From positions 248,001 through 312,000 of the forward strand of contig SAJS01000005.1 of the NCBI GenBank assembly GCA_004017535.1: a stretch of DNA of 64,000 nucleotides, given 5' to 3'. Of the stretch, positions 3,555 to 63,832 are shown in pieces. Made by a program: the position numbers and the translations under genes. The DNA is from Mesorhizobium sp. Its GTDB lineage: Bacteria; Pseudomonadota; Alphaproteobacteria; Rhizobiales; Rhizobiaceae. Within the stretch, counting starts at the first letter, position 1. The number at the start of each line of letters is the position of its first letter. Below the pieces are notes generated by a model. The model was not told the origin of the DNA. It saw only the letters and a program-made list of their open reading frames with translations, and ran no database searches.

Positions 3555-3632
3555 CCGCTGCAACCCGCCCGATTTCGTCGCTTATAGCGCCACAACCAGC
3601 GGTCTCCGATTGTTCTGTTTCGGATGATTCGC

Positions 3633-3985: not shown

Positions 3986-4061
3986 GGGTGATGGCGGGAT
4001 GGTGCCTGGCTTGGCATCGCCGGTATATTAGCCGCTTCACATGGCCGGATCGCGCGCCGCT

Positions 4062-4493: not shown

Positions 4494-4677
4494 GGCATGA
4501 TCTCCCTTGCTTTCCGCCAGGCTGGGGTGAGACGATAGCGGCATCCGCGGAACCTGTCACCGCGCTGCCACAGAACTTAGCCGCGCTACTTCCTTAACGC
4601 CTCCGATCCCCAAAATTAACCTTTTGTTAACCATTCGCCCGGCACCCTTTAACCATTGAGTAAGGATTCGCCTGGAC

Positions 4678-5568: not shown

Positions 5569-5667
5569 GGCCGCAAGCTTCGGACCGGTTTCGTGTGCCA
5601 AAGTTGTTAACGAGTCCGCCGTGCCCGGCACGGTCATGAATAAGAATCGCCAACGGAGGCTGTATAA

Positions 5668-6483: not shown

Positions 6484-6752
6484 GCATCCTCGACCTCTTC
6501 AAGCGGCGCACCAGCGCGCCGGTGGCGCGCGAGCGGCTGCAGCTGCTGCTCGCCTATGAGCGCCAGAGCCGCGGCCAGCCCGACCTCGTCTCCATCCTGC
6601 GCGAGGAGATCATGGCGGTCATTGCCAAGCATGTGCAGATCGACCAGGACTACCTCCAGGTCTCGATGGACCGGGGCGCTACCATGTCGACGCTGGAGAT
6701 CGACATCCAGATTCCCAACAAGAGCGCCGCGCCGCTGGCGATGGCGGGGTGA
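6480..6752 (+). CDS. minE: Cell division topological specificity factor MinE
   Basis: MinE stimulates MinD ATPase activity and keeps the MinCD inhibitor away from midcell. The 90-residue product is of normal length. The N-terminal segment [21 protein letters not shown] carries the membrane-binding and MinD-contact region, and the C-terminal half (about 35-85) holds the topological-specificity domain with the [12 protein letters not shown] stretch. Its ATG lies inside the end of minD in an ATGA overlap. Convergent stem-loops follow at 6755-6882. Confidence 0.97.
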
Positions 6753-6754
6753 CT

Positions 6755-6882
6755 CCCTACCCTCCCTCTTGTGGGGAGGGTCGATCCGCAAAGCGGATCG
6801 GGGAGGGGGCTGCGCCAACGCTTCGTCATCCTCGGGTCTGCGCGCGTCGCTTCGCTCCTTGCTCCGCCCTAGGATGACGAAG
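6755..6882. repeat. Palindromic intergenic element between convergent genes
   Basis: Three nested inverted repeats fill the space between minE and the ABC exporter gene: CCTCCC/GGGAGGG (6761-6780), GATCCGC-AAA-GCGGATC (around 6783-6799), and a perfect 12-base pair CTTCGTCATCCT (6821-6832) with AGGATGACGAAG (6871-6882). Such mosaic stem-loops are typical of interspersed intergenic repeats in rhizobial genomes and may act as two-way terminators. There is no T-run. Confidence 0.6.
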
Positions 6883-6908
6883 ACGCGAGGCCGCCGTCCC
6901 CACTCCCC

Positions 6909-11954: not shown

Positions 11955-12554
11955 CAGCGGCGTTCGCCAGGTCGGTGATGCCACGCGGCAGAGGGCGGAC
12001 AAATCTCGCCGCCGCGGGCCGACCGCTTGCCGTCCGGGCCCGGGGCGCAATCCCTGCCGGCTGGCGGAATGCCCATCCGAGTCACAATAATGGCAGCCTC
12101 CCAACAGGCATGCCCCCGATCCACGATTGTCGCGGCAGATGGTGCGGTGCAACACAAAATGCTTACGACCTTGAAATAAGATGTGATGCCTTTGTGGAAC
12201 CGAAATAGTTGTGCTGTGAAAATATCCGTACGATCGATCCAGTGGTCCTATGAAGTTATAGGCAATTGGTCTGAGTTGTGGAGAGTATCAGTCGCTAAGG
12301 ATGTGGGCGAATTATCCCTGCAACCGCAGCGGGTATGATGGCAACATTGAGAAAAAGGCTCGATCGTGGTGCCAAATTCTACAGAAGAGTCCGCGGAAAC
12401 ATCTTGAATTTCAAGTTATTGTGCGGCGCAGCAGGCCTGCCTCCCGGGGGAAGAGGCGCCTTGTCCCACCATCCGCCGCCCACTGCCTCACGACGGCGCT
12501 GCCGCAAAGGCCTTATCTCCGATCCGATCAGGGCAGGAGGGGACGGAGAGCTAA
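11955..12554. other. 600-base intergenic region between divergent genes
   Basis: No convincing gene on either strand. The part from about 12130 to 12430 is clearly richer in A and T than its surroundings and probably holds the promoters of the glycan operon (leftward) and of the RhtA-like exporter (rightward). I did not find a strong palindrome or a riboswitch motif. Confidence 0.5.
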
Positions 12555-13442
12555 GTGACGTCGACGCCGATTGCAAAACCGCAGGTGCAAATGGGCGCCA
12601 TGCCCGTGCTCGGCCTGCTTGGCTCGATGCTGTCGGTGCAGGTTGGCGCCGCCTTTGCCAAGGGCCTGTTCCCGGTGCTGGGGCCGGAAGGCACGACCAT
12701 GCTGAGGCTTGCCATCGGCGCGCTGATGCTGGCGGCGGTGCTGATGCCATGGAAGGTGCTGCCCTCGCGGAGAAACCTGCCCTGGCTCGCCGCCTACGGC
12801 ATCACTGTCTGCGCCATGAACCTGCTGTTTTATGCCGCGCTCCAGCGCATTCCGCTGGGCATCTGCGTGGCGCTGGAATTCACCGGACCGCTCTTCGTCG
12901 CGACCCTCGGCTCCAGGCGCCTGCTCGACCTTGTCTGGGTGGGGCTAGCCATCGCCGGCGTCATGCTGCTGTCGCCCTTTGCCGGGATCAGCCGCGGGCT
13001 CGATCCGCTGGGCGTAGTGCTGGCGCTCGCGGCCGGCGCCTGCTGGGGGCTCTACATCATCTTCGCGCAGAAGGCCGGCGCCGAGCTCGGCGCGCGCACC
13101 TCCGCCTATGGCATGGCGATCGCCGCGGTGCTGGCGCTGCCTTTCGGCTTCGGCGCCGCGCAGCCCTATTTCAGTGACCCGCACGTCATGGCCGGCGCAG
13201 CCGTGGTCGGCCTGTTCTCCAGCGCGCTGCCCTTCTACCTGGAAATGCTGGTGCTGGCCCGCATGCCGGCCAGGGTCTATGGCATGCTTGTATGCCTGGA
13301 GCCGGCGGGCGCCGCCCTGACCGGCTTCCTGTTTTTGGCAGAGAAGCTCAACCTTCTGCAATGCGCCGGCATCGCCGCTGTCATTGGCGCCGCCTTCGGC
13401 ACGGCGGTCGCAGCGCGGCGGCCGGCGCCTTCGCCGGCCTGA
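12555..13442 (+). CDS. rhtA: Threonine/homoserine exporter RhtA-like DMT transporter
   Basis: The product has 295 residues, ten predicted membrane helices and two EamA repeats. It follows E. coli RhtA closely as I recall it: GGASLAKSLFP is matched by GAAFAKGLFP, the PLGIxVALEFTGPL motif is present as PLGICVALEFTGPLF, and AGACWGLYIIFAQKAGAELG and SSALPFYLEMLVLARMPARV also correspond. RhtA exports threonine, homoserine and some other amino acids or amino-acid analogues. The GTG start at 12555 follows GGAG; ATG 12600 is an alternative that would shorten the cytoplasmic tail. Transcribed alone. Confidence 0.88.
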   Translation: MTSTPIAKPQVQMGAMPVLGLLGSMLSVQVGAAFAKGLFPVLGPEGTTMLRLAIGALMLAAVLMPWKVLPSRRNLPWLAAYGITVCAMNLLFYAALQRIPLGICVALEFTGPLFVATLGSRRLLDLVWVGLAIAGVMLLSPFAGISRGLDPLGVVLALAAGACWGLYIIFAQKAGAELGARTSAYGMAIAAVLALPFGFGAAQPYFSDPHVMAGAAVVGLFSSALPFYLEMLVLARMPARVYGMLVCLEPAGAALTGFLFLAEKLNLLQCAGIAAVIGAAFGTAVAARRPAPSPA

Positions 13443-13723
13443 CTCCCCGGAAGCCGTCGCGCGCACCAGAATCCATTTCTGAGCGACGCGCTCCAAAGCG
13501 TTGCCCGGCTTGGAGAAATCGATGCGCGCGCGGCAATATCCGACCACATCCGGTGGTTGAAATAAGACTTAGGTCCTATCGAAAATAGCAACAAGTCCGA
13601 GTGGACAAGACAAGGGTCGTGGGCCACTTCCTAATCATGGGCTGATTGGGGATGCTTATGCTGCGACATTGCCGGTGGGGTAGTTCGGCCGACGGGCTGA
13701 AGGGCTGGCGTGGGGAGAGCGGG

Positions 13724-14248
13724 ATGCGCTTGAAGCGCAGGGCCTGCAGGCTGGTCTTGCGAGCGCTGACTGCGTTGGCGCTTGTTGTCGCGCCTTTCAC
13801 GCTCTCCGTCGATGGTGTCGTTGTGACCAAGGCCTATGCCGGCAAAGGCGGCAATGGCGGCGGGAACGGCGGCGGCAATGGTGGTGGAAACAGCGGCGGG
13901 AACGGCGGCGGGAATAGCGGGAACGGCGGCGGGAATAGCGGCGGCAATAGCGGAAACGGAAACAGCAATAGCGGCGGTAACAGCGGAAACAGCAACGGCA
14001 ACAGCAGCGGGAACAACAGCTCGAGCAAAAGCGCCAGCGAGGCGAGCGCCGCCGATGTCGACAGCCACGTGAACGCGGCGACCGGCGATAAGGTCGAGGC
14101 CACCGCCGGCAGCATCCAGGTTACGCACCGCAATGGAATGAAGGAGACGATCGAGAACGGCCGGTTCAAGATGGAAGACAAATACGGACGCACCATCGTC
14201 GACCGCAAGGCTACCATGGCCGATCTCAATCGCCTGAAGAGTTTGTGA
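13724..14248 (+). CDS. Secreted Gly/Asn/Ser-rich protein, paralogue A
   Basis: The product has 174 residues. An N-terminal signal peptide ends at the AYA-G site, followed by about 65 residues made almost only of Gly, Asn and Ser (GGGN, GNGG and SGGN repeats), then a compact C-terminal domain of about 60 residues with VTHRNGMKETIENGRF, GRTIVDRKAT and DLNRLKSL. The next gene encodes the same layout. I chose ATG 13724 because GGGAGAGCGGG precedes it and the leader is of normal length; the longer frame from 13646 adds unlikely residues. Low-complexity linkers of this type occur in surface, biofilm or matrix proteins. I do not recognise the C-terminal domain and assign no function. Confidence 0.8.
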   Translation: MRLKRRACRLVLRALTALALVVAPFTLSVDGVVVTKAYAGKGGNGGGNGGGNGGGNSGGNGGGNSGNGGGNSGGNSGNGNSNSGGNSGNSNGNSSGNNSSSKSASEASAADVDSHVNAATGDKVEATAGSIQVTHRNGMKETIENGRFKMEDKYGRTIVDRKATMADLNRLKSL

Positions 14249-14386
14249 GAGCAGAGTTTGTGAGAGCGAGGTTTTATCCGGATTAGATCTTAAGGGACCG
14301 AAGGTCAGCGCTGCAAAATCAGGTTGCCACCTTTTGCTTCGTCTCTGCGGTCCTGATCGTCTTGCGATGGAATCTGGCTACTCACC

Positions 14387-14418
14387 TTACCCCCGCCTCC
14401 GTGCGGGGGTAATTTTTT
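14387..14418 (+). terminator. Rho-independent terminator after paralogue A
   Basis: The inverted repeat ACCCCCGC/GCGGGGGT with a six-base loop is followed by AATTTTTT. It lies 140 bases after the stop of paralogue A. The rest of the 14249-14620 gap holds the upstream region of paralogue B and no further gene. Confidence 0.8.
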
Positions 14419-14620
14419 CAAGCTGCGGCGATTGCTGCTGTTGCGACATTGGTCACCCATGGCGGCGGAAATGGTCTGATCGGCCGGAGCATGGGTCGTG
14501 GGCCGCTTTCGTCGCGTCGGAGGAATGTGATCCTTGCCTCCGTCAAGAGACCGGTTCCGCGTTGCCCGTGCCGAGAGCGGACCTTCGGCAAACCGAGGTG
14601 GAACCGGCAGAAGGAAAAGA

Positions 14621-15166
14621 ATGCGCCAACCCGCCCGCAAAAGGCTAGCCGACCTGTCGCTGCGCCTCTCTGTCGCGCTGGCGGTTATGGTTGCGCCCTG
14701 CCTGTTGGGGCCGGGCAAGGTGACAAAGCTCGTGTCCGCCGCCTACGCCGGCAACGGCAATAGCGGCGGCAATGGCAATGGCGGCAATTCGGGTTCCGGC
14801 GGCGGTTCCAACTCCGGCTCCGCTGGTGGCTCCAATTCCGGCTCCGCCGGCGGCTCAAATTCCGGCGACGACGGTAACGCCGGCAGCAATCCCGACAACA
14901 GCGACGCCGGGGGCGGCAATCCCAATGCCGGGCCTGGCAACAACAGCGGCAAGGGCAATGCCAGTCCCGGCGGCAAGAACAGCTATAGCAACCCGGCAAC
15001 CGGCGACACGCTCTCGATCGACGGCAACAAGGTCACCGTCGTCCATCGCAACGGCATGAAGGAAGAAGTCCAGAACGGCCGTTTCGAGATGATCGACGCG
15101 CAAGGCCGCACCATCATCGATCGGCAGGCGACGGAGGAGGATCTGAATCGTCTGCTGAACTTGTGA
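14621..15166 (+). CDS. Secreted Gly/Asn/Ser-rich protein, paralogue B
   Basis: The product has 181 residues, with the same three parts as its upstream neighbour: a signal peptide ending at AYA-G (about 43 residues), a Gly/Ser/Asn/Asp-rich stretch of about 75 residues with three GGSNSGSA-type repeats, and a C-terminal domain with NPATGDTLSI, VVHRNGMKEEVQNGRF, GRTIIDRQAT and DLNRLLNL. AAGGAAAAGA precedes ATG 14621. The two C-terminal domains agree at most positions, while the low-complexity parts differ in unit and length, as expected when only the domain is under strong selection. A separate promoter is likely because a terminator stands between the genes. Confidence 0.82.
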   Translation: MRQPARKRLADLSLRLSVALAVMVAPCLLGPGKVTKLVSAAYAGNGNSGGNGNGGNSGSGGGSNSGSAGGSNSGSAGGSNSGDDGNAGSNPDNSDAGGGNPNAGPGNNSGKGNASPGGKNSYSNPATGDTLSIDGNKVTVVHRNGMKEEVQNGRFEMIDAQGRTIIDRQATEEDLNRLLNL

Positions 15167-15208
15167 GGGCCGGGGAAGGCTACCCCCTTTTTCTGCTACC
15201 CTCGCATG

Positions 15209-15240
15209 TCACCCCCGTCCCTTGAGGCGGGGGTGATTTG
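15209..15240 (+). terminator. Probable terminator after paralogue B
   Basis: TCACCCCCG and CGGGGGTGA form a nine-base stem with a ten-base loop, followed by a short TTTG. It lies between convergent genes and resembles the terminator after paralogue A, although the T-run is weak. Confidence 0.6.
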
Positions 15241-15261
15241 CGTTGGGGGGGACTCCAGCCC

Positions 15262-15906
15262 TCAGTTCCTCTCCCTCGCCTCATGCATCAGCAGCGCCGC
15301 TTCGGTGCGGTTGCGCACGTTGAGCTTGGCGAGCACCCTGGTCATGTGATGCTTGACCGTCTTTTCCTGCAACGACAGCCGGGCGGCCACCTCCTTGTTG
15401 CTCAGCCCCTCCGCGACCAGCTTCAGGATCTCGGCTTCGCGGCCGGTGAGCTGGGCGAGCGGGTCCGGCTTGCTGCCGGTGGGCTGCAGAAGGTCGGAAA
15501 GCAGCCTGGCCGAGAGGCTCGGCGAAACATAGCTCTGGCCGTTGGCGACATCGCGCAGGATCTCGGCCAGCGCCTTGGAGCCGACGCCTTTCAGCACATA
15601 GCCGCGCGCGCCGGCCTTCAGCGCCTGGGCGACGTCGGCATTGGTCTCCGACACCGTCAGCATCACGATCTTCTGCTCTGGCATCGCTGAAAGGATGCTG
15701 GCGAGCGCGCTGAGGCCGCCGCCCGGCATGCTGATGTCGAGCAGAAGGATATCGGGCGCGCTGGCGCGCACCAGCCTTTCGGCGTCCTCGGCGCTGGCGC
15801 CTTCACCCACGAGCTCGAAGCCGCCTATCTCGCCGAGGCTGCGCGCAACGCCCTCGCGAAACAGGGGATGGTCGTCGACTATTGCGATGCGGATGGACGT
15901 GCTCAC
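15262..15906 (-). CDS. NarL/DegU-type response regulator
   Basis: The product has 214 residues. The receiver domain (1-120) has IVDDHPLFREG with the acidic pair, LLLDISMPGG with the phospho-acceptor aspartate, and YVLKGV with the conserved lysine. A LuxR-type helix-turn-helix follows (about 150-205): LTGREAEILKLVAEGLSNKEVAARL, then KTVKHHMTRVLAKLNV. It is a DNA-binding output regulator. The GTG start at 15906 overlaps the stop of the sensor kinase gene by four bases (GTGA), so the pair is co-translated and almost certainly cognate. The signal and target genes are not evident. Confidence 0.95.
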   Translation of the reverse strand: MSTSIRIAIVDDHPLFREGVARSLGEIGGFELVGEGASAEDAERLVRASAPDILLLDISMPGGGLSALASILSAMPEQKIVMLTVSETNADVAQALKAGARGYVLKGVGSKALAEILRDVANGQSYVSPSLSARLLSDLLQPTGSKPDPLAQLTGREAEILKLVAEGLSNKEVAARLSLQEKTVKHHMTRVLAKLNVRNRTEAALLMHEARERN

Positions 15907-17312
15907 GGTTGCTCCTCGACAGACAAGGTGATCACCAGTCTTGTTCCTCCAGGGCCTGTCAGTGTCTCGAACTGACCGCCTATGCTTTCGATACGTTCCC
16001 TCAGGCCCGCAAGCCCAAGTCCTTCGCTTCGGGCCGGGTCGAAGCCGGGGCCGGTGTCCACGACCTCGACGAGAAGCTTGCCGCCTTTCGTCGTGGCCCT
16101 GACCTGCTGGCCCTTGCCCTTGCCGTGCCGGAAGGCGTTGTTCAGGCCTTCCTGCACGAAGCGATAGATGCTGATCTTTTCCGAGGTGCCCAGTTCCGGC
16201 AAGCGCTCTGGCAGGGTTAGCAACACATTGGTGCTGGTGCGGCGCTCATGCTCGGCCACCGCCAGCCGTAAAATGTCGGCGATGGCCTGGGTCTCGATCT
16301 GCGGCAGCACCAGCCCGTTGCAGATGCCGCGTATCTCGCGCATCGCTTCGCCGAGCGTCTTGTGGATTCCGGCGATCTCGGCTTCGCGCAGCGTGCTCGA
16401 CGTGGCTGGATCGACCAGCGCCGGGCTGTCCATCCTGAGCGCGGCGAGCGCCACAAGTTGCGCCGGGCCGTCATGCAGGTCGGCGCCTATGCGCCTCAGA
16501 TAGCGCTCGTTGATGGCGGTGGCGCGGCGCGAGGCGCGCTGAACGCGCTGCCGCAGCGTCGAGTTCTGCGCCAGCGCCGCCTGCAATTCCGAGACCTTGG
16601 CCTCGAGCGCCGCCTGCTGGGTGACGATGGTGCGGCTGCCCCGGAAAACGATGCCCGAGAGCAGGGCAAGCGCCGCCGCCGTGGCGCCCGCCACCACCAG
16701 CCAGCTCCACAACAGGGCCGAGTGCAGCGATTCCTCGAAATCGCCGGACAATTCGTAGAACTCAGACACGGCCACGACCTCGCCCGACCAGGGTTCGCGC
16801 ACCGGGTTGTAAATCTCGAGCAGCGGCACCCCCATCGAGCGTTCCTTCTCGTCTTCCTCGTCTGCGAGCCTGTTGGAGTTGTATCTGACCATGACATTGC
16901 CGGCGAAAGCGGCGACGAGATTGGCGTTGGGCTTGATCTGCCTGCCGATGAGGGTGGCGTCCTTCGAATAGAGAATCGTGCCGTCTCGCCGCCATAGCTT
17001 GAACGAGACCAGTCGTTTCCCGAGCGCCCCCTGGCCGAGCGTCTCGTCCAGCGCCCGCTTGACGGTGTCGTCCAGCTCCTGGCTCTTGCGCATGTCCGGC
17101 AGCAGCGGCGCGATCACGCTGTCGACATAGAGCGCGGTGGCGGCGGCGGAATTGTGCAGGACGCCGTCACGGATCTGCGATGTCACCCACAGCCCGACCA
17201 CGAGCATCACCGCCAGAAGGCCGATGCCGCCCGCAATCACGAACTGCCAGGCAAGCGAGAGCCCGCTCCAGATTCGTGCAAGCCGTTTCAGATACCTCCC
17301 AAACATCGGCAC
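15903..17312 (-). CDS. Membrane sensor histidine kinase, NarX/DegS (HisKA_3) type
   Basis: The product has 469 residues. Helix 1 (about 22-44) and helix 2 (about 197-220) flank a periplasmic sensor region of about 150 residues that contains GTILYSKDATLIGRQI and a charged EEDEKERS loop. A coiled-coil-like stretch follows, then the dimerisation/phospho-acceptor motif GADLHDGPAQLVALAALRMDS and the ATPase boxes QEGLNNAFRHGKGKG, VEVVDTGPGFDP and GLGLAGLRERI. It would autophosphorylate on the LHDG histidine and pass the phosphate to the regulator in the next gene. The start is GTG 17312 or ATG 17306. The ligand is unknown; the periplasmic domain matches no family I can name. Confidence 0.93.
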   Translation of the reverse strand: MPMFGRYLKRLARIWSGLSLAWQFVIAGGIGLLAVMLVVGLWVTSQIRDGVLHNSAAATALYVDSVIAPLLPDMRKSQELDDTVKRALDETLGQGALGKRLVSFKLWRRDGTILYSKDATLIGRQIKPNANLVAAFAGNVMVRYNSNRLADEEDEKERSMGVPLLEIYNPVREPWSGEVVAVSEFYELSGDFEESLHSALLWSWLVVAGATAAALALLSGIVFRGSRTIVTQQAALEAKVSELQAALAQNSTLRQRVQRASRRATAINERYLRRIGADLHDGPAQLVALAALRMDSPALVDPATSSTLREAEIAGIHKTLGEAMREIRGICNGLVLPQIETQAIADILRLAVAEHERRTSTNVLLTLPERLPELGTSEKISIYRFVQEGLNNAFRHGKGKGQQVRATTKGGKLLVEVVDTGPGFDPARSEGLGLAGLRERIESIGGQFETLTGPGGTRLVITLSVEEQP

Positions 17313-50968: not shown

Positions 50969-51715
50969 TCACTTTCGCGCGAAGCTGAAAGCGAAATGGC
51001 TGCCGCGATGATAGACGGCGGCATGGACGACCGGGGTTCCGGTCCCGTCGAAACAGGTCTCCGTAATGAGCAGGGCTGGCCCGAAGTCGCGCAGGTCGTT
51101 TCGCTGCACGATCTCGTCCGGCAGCGTCACGGCTGCAACCGAAGCGGCCGACATGCGCGGCTGATGGCGGTATCTTTCCAGCAGCGCGAGCAGCGAGCCG
51201 CTCCATTCGATGTCGAAGAGGCGGCCCGGCAAAAGGCCCCTCGGCACATAGTCCAGTGAATAGATGAGGGGCAGATCATTGTGCAGCCGCAGCCGTTCAA
51301 GTCGGATGACGCGCTCTCCATCCGCCAACCGTAGTTGCTGCTGGATCAATGGAGCAGGCGTTTCCTCGGCAATGGAAAGAACCTTGTTGACGGTGTCGTA
51401 GCCATAGTGGCGCGCCATGTCGGTCACGCTTTCGAATACCGTGATGGGACGGTCGACCTGGACGGCGGAATTCGCGGTGACGAAGCGGCCGAGACCATGG
51501 GTGACGGAGATGACGCCGTCTTGTTCGAGAAGCTTCAGCGCCTCGCGCAGCGCAGGGCGCGAGATGCGGAAGCGCTGCGTCAGCTGGGATTCCGTTGGCA
51601 GCCGGTCTCCGGGCTTGAGCCCTTCGGTCCTGATGAGGTCGGCCAAGCGGTCGCGGAGCTGGACCGCCAATGTGCGCGCATCGCGAAGCGGTTCGTCCAA
51701 GTCCCTCTTCCCCAT
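50969..51715 (-). CDS. GntR family regulator with UTRA domain (FrlR/HutC-like)
   Basis: The product has 248 residues. The winged HTH is at about 10-75: LIRTEGLKPGDRLPTESQLTQRFRISRPALREALKLLEQDGVISVTHGLGRFV. The C-terminal UTRA domain (about 95-245) binds a small effector, often a sugar phosphate. It is divergent from the frlB-like gene across the palindrome at 51852-51870. FrlR of other bacteria is of this type, so a fructosamine-6-phosphate effector is plausible but inferred. Confidence 0.9.
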   Translation of the reverse strand: MGKRDLDEPLRDARTLAVQLRDRLADLIRTEGLKPGDRLPTESQLTQRFRISRPALREALKLLEQDGVISVTHGLGRFVTANSAVQVDRPITVFESVTDMARHYGYDTVNKVLSIAEETPAPLIQQQLRLADGERVIRLERLRLHNDLPLIYSLDYVPRGLLPGRLFDIEWSGSLLALLERYRHQPRMSAASVAAVTLPDEIVQRNDLRDFGPALLITETCFDGTGTPVVHAAVYHRGSHFAFSFARK

Positions 51716-51851
51716 TGTGCCAATTCTCCCTTTGTTGTCCGACAATCGCGCCCAGGTCAAGCGGAGGCAGGCCGTGGCGATCTCGTGGCAGATAGGAAGA
51801 GGGCCGAGACCCGATCCGCAAAATTTGTCTTGAAATGTGCTTGCCAAGATG

Positions 51852-51870
51852 TCAGTTGTCTTACAACTGA
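51852..51870. promoter_or_regulatory. GntR operator between gntR and frlB-like gene
   Basis: TCAGTTGT (51852-51859) and ACAACTGA (51863-51870) pair exactly around a three-base centre. It sits 16 bases before the frlB-like start, where a repressor would block transcription. A similar half appears upstream of the binding-protein gene. Confidence 0.75.
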
Positions 51871-51886
51871 ACAACTCGAGGGAACA

Positions 51887-52900
51887 ATGCTCAATTTCGA
51901 CGAAGCCCGGTTTGTGCGCATCCAAGCGGGGGCAGTGGCCTTGCGCGAGCGCATTGAAGCTGTTGTGGCGCAGTGCCTCGCCGCCGGGGCGCAAAACATC
52001 TTCTTTCTCGGCACCGGCGGTGCGGCGATCCTGATGCATCCAGCCGCGCAATTGCTGCAACGCCGATCCCGCTTCCCGGCCCTTATTGACATTACCGCCG
52101 AGCTTCAGCTTGCCCAATCCGTTCACCTGACCGACAAATCGATCGTCGTGTTGCCTTCGCTCTCCGGCACGACCAAGGAAAGCGTGGCGCTGCTGTCGAG
52201 GATCAAGGAAGTCGGAGCGACGGTGATCGCGCTGGTCGGACATGAGGAGACGCCCCTCGGCAAGGGTGGGGACCATGTCTTCGTCAACTTCGCCGAGGAC
52301 GACACGTCCTGCGAATCTTTCTATCTCCAGTCGCTCTTCATCGCGCTTGCGGTGCTGAAGCATCGCGGTGAGCTCGCCGAATCCGAACGGATACTCGCCG
52401 AACTGGAGCAGATGCCGTCACTGCTGCTCGGGGTAAAGCGGAGCTATGAAAAGGAAGCGGCCGGTTTGGCCCAAACACTGGCCGCCTCCGACTATCACAT
52501 CATAACCGGCGCCGGGAACGTCTGGCCGCAGGCCTGGTATTACGGCATGTGCATCCTGGAGGAGATGCAGTGGATCCGCACCCGCCCGGTGCATGCTTCT
52601 GACTTTTTCCATGGCACGCTGGAACTGGTGGACAAAGACGTCAGCGTGGTGCTCTTCAAGGGTGAAGACAGCGCGCGGCCGCTGGCCGATCGCGTCGCGA
52701 AATTCGCCCCTGCCTATACGGACAAGTTGACGGTGCTCGACACCGCCCGTTTTGAACTGCCCGGCATTTCGCCGGATGTGCGCGCGCTGGTTTCACCGAT
52801 CGTGCTCGCGACAGCGCTCGAACGGGTCAGCGCTCATCTCGAGGTGATCCGCAACCACCCGCTTACCACGCGCCGCTACTACAAGCGCGTTGCCTATTGA
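51887..52900 (+). CDS. SIS domain protein, FrlB-like fructosamine-6-phosphate deglycase
   Basis: The product has 337 residues, with two SIS domains. The first has NIFFLGTGGAAILMHPAAQLL and VVLPSLSGTTKESVALLSRIKEVGATVIALVGHEET; the second has ITGAGNVWPQAWYYGMCILEEMQWIRTRPVHASDFFHGTLELVD, in which E and H resemble FrlB and GlmS isomerase sites. FrlB splits fructoselysine-6-phosphate into glucose-6-phosphate and lysine. The adjacent PfkB kinase would make the substrate. A related glucoselysine or other fructosamine substrate is possible. Confidence 0.8.
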   Translation: MLNFDEARFVRIQAGAVALRERIEAVVAQCLAAGAQNIFFLGTGGAAILMHPAAQLLQRRSRFPALIDITAELQLAQSVHLTDKSIVVLPSLSGTTKESVALLSRIKEVGATVIALVGHEETPLGKGGDHVFVNFAEDDTSCESFYLQSLFIALAVLKHRGELAESERILAELEQMPSLLLGVKRSYEKEAAGLAQTLAASDYHIITGAGNVWPQAWYYGMCILEEMQWIRTRPVHASDFFHGTLELVDKDVSVVLFKGEDSARPLADRVAKFAPAYTDKLTVLDTARFELPGISPDVRALVSPIVLATALERVSAHLEVIRNHPLTTRRYYKRVAY

Positions 52901-52941
52901 GCTAAGCCCTCGGGCCGGCACCTTATCGGGTAGCGCGGGAT

Positions 52942-53754
52942 ATGAGCAGCTTTCGATTTGCCGCGGTCGGCGACAACTGTATCGATCGCCTCGGAGCGCC
53001 GATCGGCCGCTCGCTGGTCGGCGGCAACGCCCTCAACGTTGCCGTCCAACTCGCCCGGCTTGGCCACGACAGCTTCTATTTCGGTGCCGTGGGCTGCGAC
53101 GCCGACGGCGAACGCACCCGCGCCGAACTTGCAGCCAATCGGGTAGCCGTCGAGCACCTGCGCGCAGGCCAGGGCAGCACCGCCTCCACGGACATCAAAG
53201 TCTTGCCGTCCGGCGAGCGTCTGATCGCCGCCGAGGATTTCGGCGCCTGCGCCGGTTATGCGCCGGACCAGGCCGAACTGGCGATCTTGAGGGCGATGGA
53301 TCACGTCCATATCGGTTGGCTGGACGATGGCGGCGCCTTGCGCAGGCACCTGTCGCGGGCAGGCGTCAGCGTCTCGCAGGACATCTCGGTCAACGCCGAT
53401 CCCGCCGATCTCGGTGTGGAGGGTTTGAGGATAGTTTTCTGCTCGACCGAGCAACGTCGCGCCGCGGCGGAAGCGATGGCGGCGGATCTCCTGTCGCGCG
53501 GCGCAGGCTGCGCTGTCGTCATGCGCGGTGCCGAGGGGTCGATGGCGCTGACGGCCCGCGAGCGCGCCGAGACAGGCATCCGCCCGGTCGAGGTCCTCGA
53601 CACGACCGGCGCCGGCGACAGTTTCATCGCCGGTTTTCTGCATGCATGGTTGGCCAGGAAGCCGCTCTTGCAATGCCTCGAAAGCGGCCGCGATCATGCT
53701 GCTCTGGCCTGCCGCCATCTCGGCGGCTTTCCCCAGGCGGGGATGCCGCATTGA
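52942..53754 (+). CDS. PfkB family sugar kinase, FrlD-like
   Basis: The product has 270 residues of the ribokinase/PfkB fold: FAAVGDNCIDRLGAPIGRSLVGGNALNVAVQLARLGHDSFYFGAVGCDADGERTR at the N-terminus, where GGNALN is the substrate-binding lid region, and VLDTTGAGDSFIAGFLHAWL at the C-terminus with the catalytic base DTTGAGDS. FrlD phosphorylates fructoselysine; the partner FrlB-like gene lies 41 bases upstream. The start is ATG 52942. Confidence 0.85.
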   Translation: MSSFRFAAVGDNCIDRLGAPIGRSLVGGNALNVAVQLARLGHDSFYFGAVGCDADGERTRAELAANRVAVEHLRAGQGSTASTDIKVLPSGERLIAAEDFGACAGYAPDQAELAILRAMDHVHIGWLDDGGALRRHLSRAGVSVSQDISVNADPADLGVEGLRIVFCSTEQRRAAAEAMAADLLSRGAGCAVVMRGAEGSMALTARERAETGIRPVEVLDTTGAGDSFIAGFLHAWLARKPLLQCLESGRDHAALACRHLGGFPQAGMPH

Positions 53755-53757
53755 AGC

Positions 53758-54729
53758 TCAGCGTTTGAGTGAGCGGCCGAACCGTTCCTCGATGCGGGAC
53801 TGCAGGAATTCGAGCCCAATGGACAAAAGCCAATAGATCATCGAGGCGGTGATCAGCATCTCGATATGCCGGAACTCTGTCTGGCCCTGCGTGCGCGCAA
53901 GGTACATGATCTCCCAGACGCCAACCACCGAAACCAGGGAGGAATCCTTCAGCATTGCGATGAACTGATTGCCGGTCGGCGGCACGATGACCCGCATCGC
54001 CTGTGGCAGGATCACCAGAAACATCGTTTGGTTGGGGCTAAGGCCAAGCGCAGTGGCGCCTTCCGTCTGACCCCTTGGAATGCTTTCGATGCCGGCGCGG
54101 AAGATCTCGGTCATATACGCGCCGTAGCAAAGGGACAGCGCCATGATCCCGGCAGGCACGGCCCCGATCACATAGCCGACCTGCGGCAGCCCGAGATATA
54201 TGATGTAGATCTGCATCAGCAGCGGCAGACCGCGAAACAGCGAGGTGTAGAAGGTCGCCAGCCCATAGACAGTGCCGTTCTTGGAAAGCTTGGCTATGGC
54301 GCCGATGAAGGCGATGACCGTGGCGATGGCGATCGAAATGGCGGAAATGTAGAGCGTGGTCACCACGCCCTGCGAAATGAGGAAACCGATCTTCCTCGCG
54401 ATGAACGAAAAGGACAGATCGAACGAATAGAAGAACAGCATCAGCAGCACGAACAGCTCGATCCATACGGCCACGATCTGCTGCTTGCGCCCGAGTTGCT
54501 GCAGCGCTTTCCAGTTAACGGCCACGATCAGCGCGATCAGCACCGCCGAGACGCCTCGCGCCACCACGGGGTTGGCCGCAAGCCATTCGATCGAGCCCGG
54601 GATGAGCTTGCCGATCCAATCGGCCTTGATGCCAAGACCGTAGAGGCCCGCGGCGAAAGCGGCGAGCGCCAGCCACACGCCGATGCGCCGCGCGGCGTCC
54701 GGATAATTGAGCAGCAGTCTGCCGATCAC
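53758..54729 (-). CDS. Amino-acid ABC transporter permease (HisM/GlnP type)
   Basis: The product has 323 residues. About 110 N-terminal residues hold extra helices, then the permease core has VVTTLYISAISIAIATVIAFIGAIAKLSKNG, YTSLFRGLPLLMQIYIIYLGL and the cytoplasmic EAA-like loop EGATALGLSPNQTMFLVILPQAMRVIVPPTGNQ. This is the polar amino acid permease family, where the same protein can form both halves of the pore. It is the third minus-strand gene of the operon. The ATP-binding subunit is not in this window. Confidence 0.9.
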   Translation of the reverse strand: MIGRLLLNYPDAARRIGVWLALAAFAAGLYGLGIKADWIGKLIPGSIEWLAANPVVARGVSAVLIALIVAVNWKALQQLGRKQQIVAVWIELFVLLMLFFYSFDLSFSFIARKIGFLISQGVVTTLYISAISIAIATVIAFIGAIAKLSKNGTVYGLATFYTSLFRGLPLLMQIYIIYLGLPQVGYVIGAVPAGIMALSLCYGAYMTEIFRAGIESIPRGQTEGATALGLSPNQTMFLVILPQAMRVIVPPTGNQFIAMLKDSSLVSVVGVWEIMYLARTQGQTEFRHIEMLITASMIYWLLSIGLEFLQSRIEERFGRSLKR

Positions 54730-54748
54730 CTGTCGATATCCCTTCTGG

Positions 54749-56029
54749 TCAGTGGGGGCGTTCCCGCCACCAATCTTGCGCCTGCAGCTTCCAATAGGTG
54801 AGTTGCGCCGCGGCGAGCCCCACCGGTCCGCCCGCCCAGGCCAGTCCGAACGGCGCGAACAGACGGTAGCGGTCGGACTGGCCGAGTATCGCCTCGGCGA
54901 CCACCTTGCCGGCTAAGGCCGTCGTGTTGATGCCGTGGCCGCCAAACGCCGTCAGATACCAGACGCCTGGCTGCAGTTCCCCGACCTGGGGCATCAGGTG
55001 GCGGGCGTAGGCCATCAGTCCCGACCATGCGAGTTCGGTCCTGAGCGTAGCGAGTTGGGGGTAGGTTCCAACCATCTCCCGGCGCAACTCCCTGGCCAGC
55101 GCCGCGGGCGAAGCGGCCCGGGTGGTGATGCGCCCACCCCAGAGCAGCCGCTTTCCATCTTCCACGACGCGGTAGTAGTCGCCGGCCCTGCGGTTGTCGC
55201 CGACGGCGTCCGTCGTCGCGATGGCGCTGGCGATGAGTTCGGGAGCCTCCTCGCTCAGCATCACGTAGGTCGCAATCGGCAGGACGGCCCGCTTCAGCCG
55301 GCCGACCAGCGGTCCCGTGTAGCCGCCTGTGGCAAACACCGCTTGCCGCGCGCGCACTTCGCCGCTTGCGGTGCGTATGGTCTTTTTCGGGCCGTCGAGC
55401 CTGGCCTCGATCGCGCTGGAGCCCTCGTGAATTCTGCCGCCCAGCCGCTCGATCTCGACGCCGACGGCGCGCAGATAGTTGAGCGGATGCATGTGGAAGG
55501 CGCTGGCATCGCGCAGGCCTTGGTAGTAGCGGTCGGAATGCAGCAGCGCGCGCACCTGGTCGCGCTCAAGATAGTCGAGCGGATAGTCGAAATCCCGGGC
55601 GAGCCTCTCGGCATGCGCCTTCAGTTCGGCACCGCCGTCATGGCGCAGCACGCTCATGATCCCGGGGCGAGGCTTCGCAGCCGTGATGTCGAGATCTCTG
55701 ATCGTTTGTCGCACGAAATCGACGCCCTCGATCGACAGCCGGTGCAGCTCTTGTGCCGCCGCGGCGCCGGCCATCGCGGCGATCTTGTCGCTGCCGGTCG
55801 CGAAGCCGGGACTGACGAAGCCTCCGTTGCGGCCAGAGGCGCCGAAGCCGATGCTCTCGGCTTCGAGCAGCACGACCTGCTCTCCGGCGCGCGCTAGCTG
55901 CAGCGCCGTCGTCAGACCGGCCAGTCCGCCGCCGACAACGACTGTGTCGCATTCGGCGGGCCCTGCGAGCGGTGGTCTGACCTTCTCGTCGGCAAGGGTG
56001 CGGCGATAATAGGTGTCGGGATAGCTCAT
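54749..56029 (-). CDS. DAO-family FAD-dependent oxidoreductase (PuuB/OrdL-like)
   Basis: The product has 426 residues. The dinucleotide motif TVVVGGGLAGLTTALQLARAGE is followed by IGFGASGRNGGFVSPGFATG, a hallmark of the OrdL/PuuB group, then DYYRVVEDGKRLLWGGRITT and the C-terminal GLMAYARHLMPQVGEL and AFGGHGINTTALAGK. The family includes gamma-glutamylputrescine oxidase, D-amino acid and sarcosine oxidases and Amadoriase-like enzymes. With transport genes and an FrlB-FrlD pair beside it, oxidation of a fructosyl amino acid is a reasonable guess. It is not proven. Confidence 0.85.
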   Translation of the reverse strand: MSYPDTYYRRTLADEKVRPPLAGPAECDTVVVGGGLAGLTTALQLARAGEQVVLLEAESIGFGASGRNGGFVSPGFATGSDKIAAMAGAAAAQELHRLSIEGVDFVRQTIRDLDITAAKPRPGIMSVLRHDGGAELKAHAERLARDFDYPLDYLERDQVRALLHSDRYYQGLRDASAFHMHPLNYLRAVGVEIERLGGRIHEGSSAIEARLDGPKKTIRTASGEVRARQAVFATGGYTGPLVGRLKRAVLPIATYVMLSEEAPELIASAIATTDAVGDNRRAGDYYRVVEDGKRLLWGGRITTRAASPAALARELRREMVGTYPQLATLRTELAWSGLMAYARHLMPQVGELQPGVWYLTAFGGHGINTTALAGKVVAEAILGQSDRYRLFAPFGLAWAGGPVGLAAAQLTYWKLQAQDWWRERPH

Positions 56030-56080
56030 GACGGGTTCTGATGGAAGCAGGCGGTCTTGAGAGGCCGCCCGCGATGAGCG

Positions 56081-56908
56081 TCAATCGGCGCTGTAGTTCT
56101 TGCCGTACCACTTGGTGGTCAGCGTGGCGAGCGTGCCGTCTTTTTTCATCTGGTCGATGATGCCGCCGATCTTGGTGGTCCACTCGGCGTCGCCCTTGTC
56201 CGCGATCACTACCAGCGGCTCGCGAAACGCGTAGTCACCGGGCAGGATGCGCAGCGGATAACCGTTCTTGATGGCGTTTTGAGCGGTCTGCTCGGGCGCG
56301 ATGACTGCGTCGAGCCGCACCCCGTCCCCCAATCTCAGATCGTCGAAGGGCAGCATGGAATCGGCGAAAGTCCGGATCTCGCCCGGCTGCAGCTTGTATT
56401 GGATCGGCGGAAGGCCGGGGGCATCGATCTCCAATTGGCGGCGGATGAAATCTTCCGAGGTGGTGGCGGTCTCGACGCCGATGACCTTGCCGTTCAGATC
56501 GTCCACGGACTTCGCCTTGCTGTCTTTGTGGACCACATAAACATAGGGGCTGTAATAATAGATGCCGGCGAAATCGATCACCTTGGATCGGGCCTTGGTT
56601 GGCGTCACCGAGCCAACGCCAAGATCATAGCGGCCTTGCCAGTGGCCTCCGGTCATGGTTGCCCAATCGGGCGTCTCGAAGCTGACTTCGACGCCCAGGC
56701 GCTTGGCGATCTCTTTGGAGACGTCGATATCGAAGCCGACCAACTGGTTGCTTTCGTCGAGAAAGCTCTGCGGCGGCCAGCCGCTGTTGGTCGCAACCAC
56801 CATGGCCTTCTTGGATGTGACGCGATCGAGCGTCTCTCCCGCCCACGCCGCCGACGCGAATGCGAGCGCGCCGGCAGCCAGCGCGAAACAAGCGATAAAT
56901 CTCCTCAC
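56081..56908 (-). CDS. Amino-acid ABC transporter substrate-binding protein
   Basis: The product has 275 residues. A signal peptide (VRRFIACFALAAGALAFASAAWA) is followed by a type-2 periplasmic binding protein fold: LVGFDIDVSKEIAKRLGVEVSFETPDW, DLGVGSVTPTKARSKVIDFAGIYYY and DALIAP-type hinge positions. The start is GTG 56908 with GGGAGG five bases upstream. It is the first gene of the transport operon; the ligand is unknown but expected to be an amino-acid conjugate. Confidence 0.9.
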   Translation of the reverse strand: MRRFIACFALAAGALAFASAAWAGETLDRVTSKKAMVVATNSGWPPQSFLDESNQLVGFDIDVSKEIAKRLGVEVSFETPDWATMTGGHWQGRYDLGVGSVTPTKARSKVIDFAGIYYYSPYVYVVHKDSKAKSVDDLNGKVIGVETATTSEDFIRRQLEIDAPGLPPIQYKLQPGEIRTFADSMLPFDDLRLGDGVRLDAVIAPEQTAQNAIKNGYPLRILPGDYAFREPLVVIADKGDAEWTTKIGGIIDQMKKDGTLATLTTKWYGKNYSAD

Positions 56909-56931
56909 GAAACCTCCCTCTCGTATGTAAG

Positions 56932-56943
56932 ATGTCTGACAAC
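56932..56943. promoter_or_regulatory. Candidate second GntR site upstream of the binding-protein gene
   Basis: ATGTCTGACAAC matches nine of twelve bases of TTGTAAGACAAC, the reverse reading of the gntR-frlB operator. It lies 24 bases before the GTG start and overlaps an imperfect palindrome TGTAAGA/TCTGACA. Confidence 0.5.
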
Positions 56944-60514: not shown

Positions 60515-61663
60515 TCAACCCAGCAGATTGCGCGCCGCGCGCATGAAGATCCGCGAGCCGATCGGGATCAGGTCGTCGGGAAAATCATAGTCGGGGTTGT
60601 GCAGAGATGGGTGCCTTTCGCCGGCGCCGAGGAAGAACATCGCCGATTTGGCGCTGTGGCCGAAAATGCCGAAATCCTCCGAGGCGCGCATCGGCAGCGC
60701 CGCCTCGCTGCGCGCAACGCCTTCCTCGTCGAGCGCGCGGGCGAGATGCTCCACCGCGTCCGGCGCGTTGACGCTGGCGACGAAGATCTCGTGATAGTCG
60801 AAGCGCACCGAGAGACCATGCCTGGCCGCGATTTTTGCCGCGAGCGCTTCGGCCGAGGCGACGAGTTCCGCCATGCGCTCGTCGCGCCTGGTGCGCAGCG
60901 TCGCCCACACTTCCGCATGGCCCGGCGCGATGCCGAACACGGCTTCGCCCATCGAACAATGGGTGACGGTCACCATGCCGAAATCCTCGTCCGCGAAAGT
61001 GCCGCGCCCGAGCGCTGGCAGCGCCGGCATCAATTCGCTCACCGCCGGCATCGGCGAGGTGCCGGTTTCCGGCATCGAGGAATGCGCGGTCTTGCCCTCG
61101 AGCAGGATGCGCATGCCGCGCGAGGCGCAGTTGACGGTGCCGGCCTTGAGCCGCACCTCGCCAAACGGCACGCCGGGCAAATTGTGCAGCGAAAAGGCGA
61201 AGTCCGGCGCGATCTCGGCGAAGCGCGGATCGGCGACTACGCCGGCCGCGCCATTGCCGGTCTCCTCCGCCGGCTGGAACATCAAGACGACACGGCCCCG
61301 CGCCGGCCGCTCGCGGCCGAACTGGCGGCCGAGCGCGGCCAAGATCGCGGTGTGCCCGTCATGCCCGCACATATGCGACTTGCCCGGCACTTGCGAAGAA
61401 TGCGCGACGCGCGAAATCTCCTCGATGGGCAGCGCGTCGAGCTCGGAGCGGAACAGAACGGTCGGCCCGGCCTCGCCGCTGTCATAGACCGCCGCCACGC
61501 CATGGCCGCCGAGCCCCGTCAGCACCTTGTCCGGCCCCGTATCGGCGAGGAAGTCCACCACTTCCCTGGCGGTTTTCTCTTCCTCGTTCGAAATCTCCGG
61601 CTGCCGGTGCAGCTTGCGGCGCCATTCGGTCAGCTCGACGATGTCTCGATTGGTAAGCGTCAT
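60515..61663 (-). CDS. M20 family amidohydrolase (hippurate hydrolase/IAA-amino acid hydrolase type)
   Basis: The product has 382 residues. It has the M20 metal-site parts SHMCGHDGHTAILAALG, PAEETGNGAAGVV and the C-terminal GHSAKSAMFFLGAGERHPSLHNPDYDFPDDL. The family removes N-acyl or amino-acid conjugates, such as hippurate, acetyl-lysine or IAA-aspartate. The start is ATG 61663. The gene stands alone; the 60286-60514 stretch upstream of its stop holds no further gene. Confidence 0.93.
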   Translation of the reverse strand: MTLTNRDIVELTEWRRKLHRQPEISNEEEKTAREVVDFLADTGPDKVLTGLGGHGVAAVYDSGEAGPTVLFRSELDALPIEEISRVAHSSQVPGKSHMCGHDGHTAILAALGRQFGRERPARGRVVLMFQPAEETGNGAAGVVADPRFAEIAPDFAFSLHNLPGVPFGEVRLKAGTVNCASRGMRILLEGKTAHSSMPETGTSPMPAVSELMPALPALGRGTFADEDFGMVTVTHCSMGEAVFGIAPGHAEVWATLRTRRDERMAELVASAEALAAKIAARHGLSVRFDYHEIFVASVNAPDAVEHLARALDEEGVARSEAALPMRASEDFGIFGHSAKSAMFFLGAGERHPSLHNPDYDFPDDLIPIGSRIFMRAARNLLG

Positions 61664-61861
61664 GGTGGGCTCCGTTTGGCTTTCGGTCACACAAGCACGA
61701 TAGGGTTTTTCTCGCGCCGTGCCATGCGCATCAATTGTAATAGGCCATCGCCCTGTTTTCTCCCAGCTTCTGGCGCCGGGGCGACCCAATCGGCAAAATA
61801 CACCGTAAACCTCTGAAATCCTTAACACGATTTTCATTCCGGTCGCCTAACCACTTAGGCC

Positions 61862-63832
61862 ATGACAAGGCATGATGAGCGGCTGGCTGCGGGTCCCTCT
61901 TCCGGGGAACGCGGCGGAGCCGTGGACGCCGGCATCCTGCGCGATCAGCTCGCTGACCTCAGCAAGGGCGTCTTCATCTCGATGCCCATCGGCACGGTGC
62001 TGGCAGCCTTGATCCTGGCGGTGCAGCTGTTGTCGGGCGGCGGCCTTGCCGCGGTGGCGTGGTTTGCCGCGATCGCCCTGGTCAATGGCGCGCGCGTGGT
62101 GCTCGCGCTCGCCCAGTCGGGCGCGGCCGACGAGCGGCTGGAGGCGGTCGGCGCCCGGCTTTCGCTCTATGGCTTGCTGGCGCTGGCGTCGGGTGTGGCC
62201 TGGTCGTTCCTGGCGCTGCTCAGCGACGGATACACCACCGCCCAGGCGCCGCTCTATCTGATCGTGCTCGCCGGCACCTCCGCCGGCTCGGTCACCTATT
62301 GCACCTCCCACGCGCCGGCCTCGATCAACTTCATCACGCTCCCGCTTCTCACCGCCGCCGCCTGCGTGCTGGCGCAAGGCGGCGTCGAGAACGACGTGCT
62401 GGGCTTCACCATCCTGCTTTTCCTCGGCGGCATGATCAGAAGCGCGCTTCTGGGGCAATCCCGGTTCCGCAAGACGAGCCGCCTCAAATACGAGGCGCGC
62501 GAGTTCGCCGCCGAGATGGAACGCAACTCCAGGCGCGATCCGCTGACGGGCCTGCTCAACCGCTCCGGGCTGGAGCAGGCAATCGCCGGGCTCGGTGTTT
62601 CCGACGGCCCGTTCGTGGCCATGCTGGTCGACCTCGACGGCTTCAAATCCGTCAACGACACCTATGGCCACACCATCGGCGACGGCCTGCTGGTCAAGGT
62701 GGCGCGCCGGATCGAGGACCACGCCCCGGAAGGTGCCACCATCGCGCGCATCGGCGGCGACGAGTTCGTGCTGCTCTTCTCCGCCTGCAGGTCGCCGCAA
62801 GCGGCCGGCGAGCTTGCATCCACCATCATCGCGGCCATCGCCAATCCGGACCCGGAGCTGAACTCGGTGCGCGTCGGCGCCTCGATCGGCATCTATCAGT
62901 CGGACAAGCCGCAATTGACGGAGATGCTGCTCAAGGCCGATTTCGCGCTCTATGCGGCCAAGCGCGGCGGCAGGAACGAATACTGCCTGTTCGACGCGGG
63001 TCTCGACGCCGCGCTGGAGCGCAGGAACCGCATCGAGCGCGATCTGCGTGGCGCGATCGGGTCGGGCGCGCTCTGCTGCTGGTTCCAGCCGCTGGTGCGG
63101 CTCGACACCAGCGCAGTCGTCGGCTTCGAGGCGCTGCTGCGCTGGCAGCACGAGGTCCATGGCGCCATCTCGCCGCCCGAGATCGTCACCGCCGCGCGCG
63201 AGACCGGCCTGCTTTCGCTGCTGACCGAAACGGTGTTCCTCAATTGCTGCGCCATGATCGCAGAGCTGGCGCGGCAGGGCCGCTCGGATGTGCGGGTGGC
63301 GATGAATCTTTCACCACGCGAGCTCGAGGCCGGCAATGTCGACGACATGATCCTCGACGGGCTCAAGGCGAAGAACGTGCCCGCCGCGATGCTCGAGATC
63401 GAGATCACCGAGGAGGCGCCGGTCGACCGCGACCGGGTCGGCCAAAAGGTCGGGCGCCTGGCGGATGCCGGCATATCGATCGTTCTCGACGATTTCGGCA
63501 CCGGCTTCTCGACCCTGGTGTCGCTGAAGGACAGCCGCATCCGCAAGATCAAGATCGACAAGGATTTCGTGCGCGACCTGGCGAAATCCGTCGAGGATCA
63601 GGCCGTGGTCGAGGCGGTGATCGGCCTTGGCCGCACGCTGGGGATAGAGGTGATGGCCGAGGGCGTCGAGACCGACGCCGACCGCATGATCCTGCGCTCG
63701 CTGGGCTGCATGATCGCGCAGGGCTACCTGTTTTCGGCGGCACTGCCGATGCACGACGCGCTCGCTTTCGACGCGGCCGGCGAGGTTATTTTCGAGCCGT
63801 TGCGCAATCCCCGCAGCGGCAGCGCCGCCTGA
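61862..63832 (+). CDS. Membrane GGDEF-EAL protein (cyclic-di-GMP turnover)
   Basis: The product has 656 residues. The N-terminal part has about six helices (residues about 40-200). The GGDEF domain reads DPLTGLLNRSGLEQA, DLDGFKSVNDTYGHTIGD and IARIGGDEFVLLF, with an intact signature. The EAL domain has VVGFEALLRW, DDFGTGFS and MAEGVET with the catalytic residues in place. The protein may make or degrade cyclic di-GMP, and both domains look intact. The sensor part is unlabelled. Confidence 0.95.
   Translation: MTRHDERLAAGPSSGERGGAVDAGILRDQLADLSKGVFISMPIGTVLAALILAVQLLSGGGLAAVAWFAAIALVNGARVVLALAQSGAADERLEAVGARLSLYGLLALASGVAWSFLALLSDGYTTAQAPLYLIVLAGTSAGSVTYCTSHAPASINFITLPLLTAAACVLAQGGVENDVLGFTILLFLGGMIRSALLGQSRFRKTSRLKYEAREFAAEMERNSRRDPLTGLLNRSGLEQAIAGLGVSDGPFVAMLVDLDGFKSVNDTYGHTIGDGLLVKVARRIEDHAPEGATIARIGGDEFVLLFSACRSPQAAGELASTIIAAIANPDPELNSVRVGASIGIYQSDKPQLTEMLLKADFALYAAKRGGRNEYCLFDAGLDAALERRNRIERDLRGAIGSGALCCWFQPLVRLDTSAVVGFEALLRWQHEVHGAISPPEIVTAARETGLLSLLTETVFLNCCAMIAELARQGRSDVRVAMNLSPRELEAGNVDDMILDGLKAKNVPAAMLEIEITEEAPVDRDRVGQKVGRLADAGISIVLDDFGTGFSTLVSLKDSRIRKIKIDKDFVRDLAKSVEDQAVVEAVIGLGRTLGIEVMAEGVETDADRMILRSLGCMIAQGYLFSAALPMHDALAFDAAGEVIFEPLRNPRSGSAA

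Follow-up and report, generated by a model that had tools for sequence, protein, structure and literature searches.

How does a rhizobial locus work that places a deglycase and a kinase of the Amadori (fructosyl-amino acid) type beside an amino-acid binding protein and a flavoprotein, and what does the flavoprotein do there? We addressed this for a locus of Mesorhizobium sp. (assembly GCA_004017535.1, contig SAJS01000005.1), which lies in a stretch of 64,000 nucleotides (contig positions 248,001 to 312,000; the window). With moderate confidence, we conclude that its six genes form one GntR regulon, in which deglycation by FrlD/FrlB would be combined with a second, separable module for uptake and for oxidation at the amino-acid end; the substrate, the direction of regulation and the flavoprotein reaction are what we infer. 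Within the limits of sequence evidence, the regulon is established. The locus likely serves glycated amino acids, and the amino-acid part is the most likely target of oxidation by the flavoprotein. The genes and operator sites are (window positions):

50969-51715, minus strand: gntR, GntR-UTRA (HutC-type) regulator, 248 aa (PF00392 and PF07702 above cut-off)
51735-51745: O1, TTGTCCGACAA, about 20 bp upstream of gntR, a match to the core pattern
51850-51866, plus strand: O2, TGTCAGTTGTCTTACAA, about 21 bp upstream of the frlB-like gene
51887-52900, plus strand: frlB-like SIS sugar-phosphate deglycase, 337 aa (PF01380)
52942-53754, plus strand: frlD-like PfkB kinase, 270 aa (PF00294)
53758-54729, minus strand: amino-acid-type ABC permease with an N-terminal extension, 323 aa (PF00528 at 141-317; TIGR01726 above cut-off)
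54749-56029, minus strand: DAO-family FAD oxidoreductase (the flavoprotein), 426 aa (PF01266, 198 bits)
56081-56908, minus strand: amino-acid-type periplasmic substrate-binding protein (SBP; SBP_bac_3), 275 aa, GTG start (PF00497)
56926-56942, minus strand: O3, TTGTCAGACATCTTACA (TGTCAGACATCTTACA at 56926-56941), about 18 bp upstream of the SBP gene

All six genes had been proposed with their domains in a preliminary description of this DNA, and Pfam and NCBIfam profiles found each of them and refined the starts. The frlB-frlD pair and the SBP operon run towards each other and almost abut (53754/53758). In the PDB, the SBP matches polar amino-acid binding proteins.

We observed that the gene set recurs among relatives. 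Genome contigs were searched with the FrlB alignment, which gave 499 confirmed stretches. The best 80 of these were examined together with five plasmid loci and the window (86 loci in all); the closest named relatives of the locus among these best 80 were Mesorhizobium. GntR, FrlB, the flavoprotein and the SBP occurred together in 73 of the 86 (72 besides the window), while 13 were without part of the set. FrlD fell under the threshold in one of the 73 (L113). The set was found in four relative orders: the SBP operon was convergent with frlBD in 55 of the 73 loci, ahead on the strand of frlB in 14 and ahead on the opposite strand in three, and in the last locus gntR followed frlD. In 39 of the 73, the gene string included a transporter of the DMT family (identity of 50% or more; weak NCBIfam match). 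Proteins of this family are often amino-acid exporters.

The operator core, TTGTCNNACAA, occurs three times at the locus, before gntR, frlB and the SBP gene. The pattern TTGTCNKACAW matched the window at three places, with four strand-hits in all (shuffle mean 0.10); the gntR site, O1, reads as the core on both strands. The frlB and SBP promoters have in common the composite TGTCAGNNNTCTTACA, and the source genome (6.86 Mb) contains exactly two perfect copies of it, at these two promoters, plus one further copy with a mismatch. The pattern TTGTCNGACAW gave 38 strand-hits in this genome and its reversed control 14, and it is therefore unspecific when used alone. A sigma-70 scan was uninformative (0 promoters, against 1.4 in shuffles).

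Conservation was then counted in the 72 related loci besides the window (71 for the SBP upstream regions), with dinucleotide shuffles as controls. The TTGTCNNACAA-type core was kept at O1 in 65/72 loci, at O2 in 68/72 and at O3 in 64/71 (shuffle maximum 1), and the TGTCAGNNNTCTTACA composite at the frlB promoter in 65/72 and at the SBP promoter in 56/71 (shuffles 0). In 1.45 Mb of related loci, all 121 copies of TGTCAGNNNTCTTACA lay within 400 bp of the three gene starts. Sites were also tallied column by column (68, 70 and 63 distinct ones, picked by likeness to the core, so that core columns are favoured). The stretch conserved upstream of frlB was GATGTCAGTTGTCTTACAAC, and that upstream of the SBP gene was GTTGTCAGACATCTTACATA. 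Much of these two stretches lies outside the selecting core, and the remoter flanks drop to low information. Two loci had no operator site at all (L115, L122) and three lacked two sites each (L109, L118, L119), indicating that the most distant relatives use variants.

The preliminary description had linked both arms of the locus through a shared operator, and this link is strongly supported by the footprinting, with boundaries that differ from those described and with an additional site, O1 before gntR, that had been missed. The exact palindrome reported before frlB does exist (TCAGTTGTNNNACAACTGA, 19 bp, 51852-51870; 0 in 100 shuffles). However, as a unit it is found in only 3/72 other loci, and since the conserved stretch is GATGTCAGTTGTCTTACAAC, its right outer part is not conserved. 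The site before the SBP gene likewise exists, and its boundaries are now those of TGTCAGACATCTTACA on the minus strand. As for the regulator, it combines a winged helix-turn-helix and a UTRA domain, and a predicted operator resembling TNGTNNNACNA lies near its own gene. TNGTNNNACNA is the consensus of the palindromic operators of GntR-UTRA (HutC) regulators.

The FrlB-like protein was closest to the PDB chains 2a3n (205 bits) and 8glr (200 bits), both of which we take to be the Salmonella STM4540/GfrF protein, followed by 3eua, a putative fructose-aminoacid-6-phosphate deglycase. Its best NCBIfam model among 12 families was NF008481 (fructoselysine-6-phosphate deglycase; 74.7 bits, cut-off 430), and that of FrlD among 22 families was NF007321 (fructoselysine 6-kinase; 139.8 bits, cut-off 247). 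As neither protein reached the curated cut-off, both are named '-like'. E226 and H242 of FrlB, presumably its base/acid pair, were invariant in nine aligned sequences including that of the window (lowest identity 29%); the SIS domain scored above its cut-off, and a Glu and a His 16 residues apart are thus conserved, as in deglycases of the FrlB/FraB type. FraB and FrlB share their general acid and base, according to the available part of one report (PMC9609667). The earlier assignment to Amadori-type compounds thus finds its support in homology and context only.

The preliminary description had also stated that the ATP-binding subunit is absent from the window. We found the same: tblastn of the whole window with the ATPase of the S. 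meliloti operon gave a single match, which was 24% identical, near 7 kb and far from the locus. In 30 of the 73 loci, the gene string included an ATPase that shared 60% or more identity with this S. meliloti protein. Paralogues of 69-72% are found elsewhere in the source genome, and one of them adjoins a 64% permease (L182). A shared ATPase is plausible for the window importer, since in B. subtilis two ATPases can each power the fructosamine importer (available part of PMC12632257). We also considered the ATPase as a distant member of the regulon, and this was set aside, as no TTGTCNGACAW site lay near the two best ATPase paralogues, although this is not proof.

The flavoprotein had been suggested to add an oxidative, Amadoriase-type second route, and we therefore compared it with SocD of pAtC58, which we take to be the protein encoded beside repABC. 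The two were 29% identical over only 120 residues. At E 0.001 the flavoprotein matched no fructosyl-amine oxidase (FAOX) in the PDB, whereas SocD matched several. At E 1e-5, neither SocD nor SocC matched anything in the window. SocD was also without a match in the 72 related loci at E 1e-20, and SocC matched two of these loci, in one case 1.7 kb from the flavoprotein. In a tree of 31 rows, with several long branches, the group of the window flavoprotein (98/72), that of a second locus type described below (100/100), and SocD together with a DadA-like protein (99/96) formed three separate clades. The flavoprotein scored 155 bits with the pipecolate oxidase model (cut-off 600) and 107 bits with the aminophosphonate oxidoreductase model TIGR03329 (cut-off 633). 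A Foldseek search with its AlphaFold2 model (mean pLDDT 90.3) returned glycine oxidase (TMq 0.72), N-methyl-Trp oxidase (0.68) and D-Arg dehydrogenase (0.64) in the first rows, and no FAOX among the first 50 of 1,945 rows. The predicted structure fits an amine or amino-acid oxidase and leaves the substrate unfixed. The flavoprotein is thus not nearer to SocD and FAOX than to other DAO families, and an Amadoriase by homology was rejected as the leading interpretation on these grounds.

We further estimated how tightly the flavoprotein is coupled to FrlB in a survey of 199 genomes of the family (flavoprotein orthologues at E 1e-130; close FrlB defined as at least 72% identity). The orthologue was present in 19 genomes and a close FrlB in 12, and all 12 had the flavoprotein within 5 kb. 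Seven of the 19 had the flavoprotein and no close FrlB; in one of these (G012), a different contig carries a 56% FrlB. The SBP, flavoprotein and permease genes formed a group in six of these seven genomes, where nothing in the 15-19 kb extracted matched GntR, FrlB or FrlD. The seventh (L219, 6960-11708) kept the same three genes; frlB was undetected and only a short frlD-like frame followed the O2 site. On a flavoprotein tree of 29 chosen rows and an outgroup, FrlB presence switched nine times, a rough number as 11 of the 27 inner branches are unresolved; L227 was counted as being without FrlB. A strict one-to-one coupling of the flavoprotein to FrlB is ruled out by these FrlB-less modules.

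The neighbours of the FrlB-less copies included a RidA-family gene (L223), PALP-type genes (L225, L217), an M20 hydrolase and several unrelated genes. At L217, on a Shinella plasmid, the orthologous GntR and a core site are kept and FrlB and FrlD were not found nearby; its PALP enzyme is annotated as diaminopropionate ammonia-lyase. An M20 hydrolase (60515-61837) and a GGDEF-EAL protein (61862-63832) are encoded further downstream in the window, and the L217 module is likewise trailed by an M20 gene (36% identical) and a diguanylate cyclase. In L227 (12906-18918), from the same genus, the SBP-flavoprotein-permease operon directly adjoins the frlD/flavoprotein operon of the second FrlB class.

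This second class is represented in the source genome itself by a frlB-frlC-frlD-like operon with a LacI regulator (L155; G000:C71:73001-92000, 6751-16572). It encodes an FrlB (59%), a PfkB kinase (37%), a DAO protein of a different lineage (28%), a CUT1-type SBP and permease and a MalK-like ATPase. The best model for its TIM-barrel protein was fructoselysine 3-epimerase (117 of 305 bits), and its flavoprotein scored 422 bits with TIGR03329 (cut-off 633). A flavoprotein of the L155 type was present in all 17 second-class loci examined (L155, L197-L210, L215 and L216), where L197-L210 are 14 of the 16 genus hits of the class, L026 and L029 being left out.

Other FrlB classes had other neighbours; L123, L124, L125 and L214 lie outside the Pfam scans. 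In a third class (L042, L043, L111, L112 and L120, in whole or in part; L042 spans 800-10880), FrlB is accompanied by an asparaginase, an IDS-epimerase-like protein of the MmgE/PrpD type (best PDB match 2hp0, IDS-epimerase, 206 bits) and an ArgH homologue. The best PDB matches of the latter, 6rx8/6g3d, are titled argininosuccinate lyase and are presumably EDDS lyase. The L042 protein also passes the cut-off for argininosuccinate lyase (345 of 279.5 bits), and an ordinary lyase is therefore possible. A fructose-asparagine/aspartate route ending in fumarate and a sugar amine is possible for this class. A fourth class (L196, 8693-17980; L226, 9341-18998) combines FrlB/FrlD, a GntR and ABC genes with an M20 hydrolase and hydantoinase A (oxoprolinase), to which L226 adds hydantoinase B. 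This class could open glycated oxoproline or hydantoin. Remoter FrlB loci (28-29%; L211-L213) had matches to a kinase, ABC and LacI-type proteins and none to a flavoprotein, lyase or epimerase. Partial scans of L114 and L117 gave no clear partner enzyme. L121 (8346-14949) has an FrlB of 67% beside PGDH_C, TerC, polysaccharide-deacetylase, histidinol-dehydrogenase-like and TPP-enzyme genes, which suggests another kind of pathway, and L100 (two proteins scanned) adjoins a GMC oxidoreductase/sorbitol-dehydrogenase pair.

These loci hint that one FrlD/FrlB core is joined by a flavoprotein (of two lineages), by an asparaginase with IDS-epimerase-like and EDDS-lyase-like proteins, or by a hydantoinase/oxoprolinase with an M20 hydrolase. 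A wider strategy can be imagined in which the FrlB subfamily deals with sugar-amino-acid adducts from the 'amino-acid end first', the partner enzyme being chosen by the amino acid. We regard this as doubtful, and our estimate was lowered slightly because the ArgH-like protein passes the argininosuccinate lyase cut-off. The partner-enzyme theme is also not universal, as L121 and L100 do not fit it.

How would the window locus work? The GntR-UTRA protein most likely represses from O1-O3 and would be released when a pathway metabolite binds. In a first module, homology suggests that FrlD would phosphorylate an imported fructosamine (Amadori compound) at C6, and that FrlB would split the product into glucose-6-phosphate and an amino acid. 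In the second, the SBP and permease, probably with an ATPase shared from elsewhere, would take up the amino acid in glycated form, in free form or in both. Most likely, the DAO flavoprotein oxidises an amino acid or amine that was imported or released by FrlB, rather than attacking the sugar side as an Amadoriase does. Several points weigh against this reading. Binding of GntR to O1-O3 is suggested by the position and conservation of the sites, and a reversed TGTCAGNNNTCTTACA control, with one mismatch permitted, also matched twice in the source genome. As FrlB and FrlD fall under the NCBIfam cut-offs, a different amino sugar or adduct could be the substrate. DAO-fold enzymes are structurally too alike to tell the substrate. 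RidA was found in one FrlB-less locus and PALP in two, the other scanned neighbours being mixed, and since the SBP-flavoprotein-permease module occurs without FrlB, it could serve an unrelated amino acid.

If this last point is taken in full, the SBP, flavoprotein and permease would handle an unrelated amino acid and have only the regulator in common with FrlB/FrlD. The FrlB-less modules and the repeated switches on the tree speak for it; however, every genome with a close FrlB keeps the flavoprotein nearby, and both promoters carry the composite operator in its two perfect genomic copies, which makes this distinctly improbable. The flavoprotein might otherwise be an Amadoriase that converts the unphosphorylated Amadori compound to glucosone and an amino acid, in parallel with FrlD-FrlB. 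An SBP-DAO-permease set without FrlB would suit such a self-sufficient oxidative system, and the soc-like pAt operon likewise combines an SBP, an ABC transporter and an FAD oxidoreductase. The short match to SocD, the grouping of SocD with the DadA-like protein (on long branches), the missing FAOX matches in the PDB and Foldseek searches and the near absence of SocD and SocC from the related loci all argue against this route, and we consider it unlikely; as proposed in the preliminary description it is weak and unsupported, the flavoprotein being far from SocD and found also without FrlB/FrlD.

An intermediate case is a sequential route, in which the flavoprotein would oxidise the intact adduct at the amino-acid side to a 2-oxo acid and 1-amino-1-deoxyfructose, and FrlD/FrlB would then yield glucose-6-phosphate and ammonia. 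The second DAO lineage beside the 59% FrlB, constant in its class, is in line with this, and the IDS-epimerase-like and ArgH/EDDS-lyase-like proteins of the third class could free a sugar amine from an aspartate adduct. But the modules without FrlB/FrlD have no evident use for a sugar amine, the ArgH-like protein may be an ordinary lyase by its score, and we know of no FrlB shown to act on unsubstituted fructosamine-6-phosphate. PbfC/PbfD, enzymes that also belong to PF01266, have an N-methyl amine as the substrate that they oxidise in a different catabolic pathway (available part of PMC10590968), which also favours the sequential route; on balance we hold this route to be rather improbable. 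Deglycation by FrlD/FrlB, with oxidation at the amino-acid end by a separable module, thus remains the reading that we prefer.

The window shares its PfkB kinase and SIS deglycase (frl) with the frl/gfr systems of E. coli, B. subtilis and Salmonella, but it alone has ABC uptake of the amino-acid type, a GntR operator set of its own, and a flavoprotein under the same predicted control. The pAtC58 operon for deoxyfructosyl-glutamine (L044), which we take to be soc, also has an SBP, an ABC transporter and an FAD oxidoreductase. However, its SBP is 21% identical to that of the window and its SocD is not close to the flavoprotein; a LacI-type regulator lies beside it, and no SIS or PfkB gene is annotated adjacent. 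PbfC/PbfD resemble the flavoprotein as PF01266 oxidoreductases that recur in a catabolic cluster (PMC10590968, in the part available), but they belong to phosphonate metabolism; the flavoprotein gives only the 107 bits to TIGR03329 and no phosphonate gene is among the six of the window. Literature searches did not find a published description of the locus, although the gene set is widespread in rhizobia. Baek (2005) reportedly dealt with deoxyfructosyl-glutamine genes in Rhizobiaceae and may cover part of it.

Amadori compounds reportedly occur in foods as well as in plant tissues and decomposing plants (available part of PMC8262997). For the rhizobial gene set a precise operator and regulon are now defined, and these can be tested in common laboratory rhizobia. 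Together, the flavoprotein and the partner enzymes encoded at the sister loci suggest that glycated amino acids are subject to unexplored chemistry at their amino-acid end. Enzymes of the IDS-epimerase and EDDS-lyase type are mainly familiar from man-made chelators, and an 'amino-acid end first' strategy, if true, would give natural roles to their relatives.

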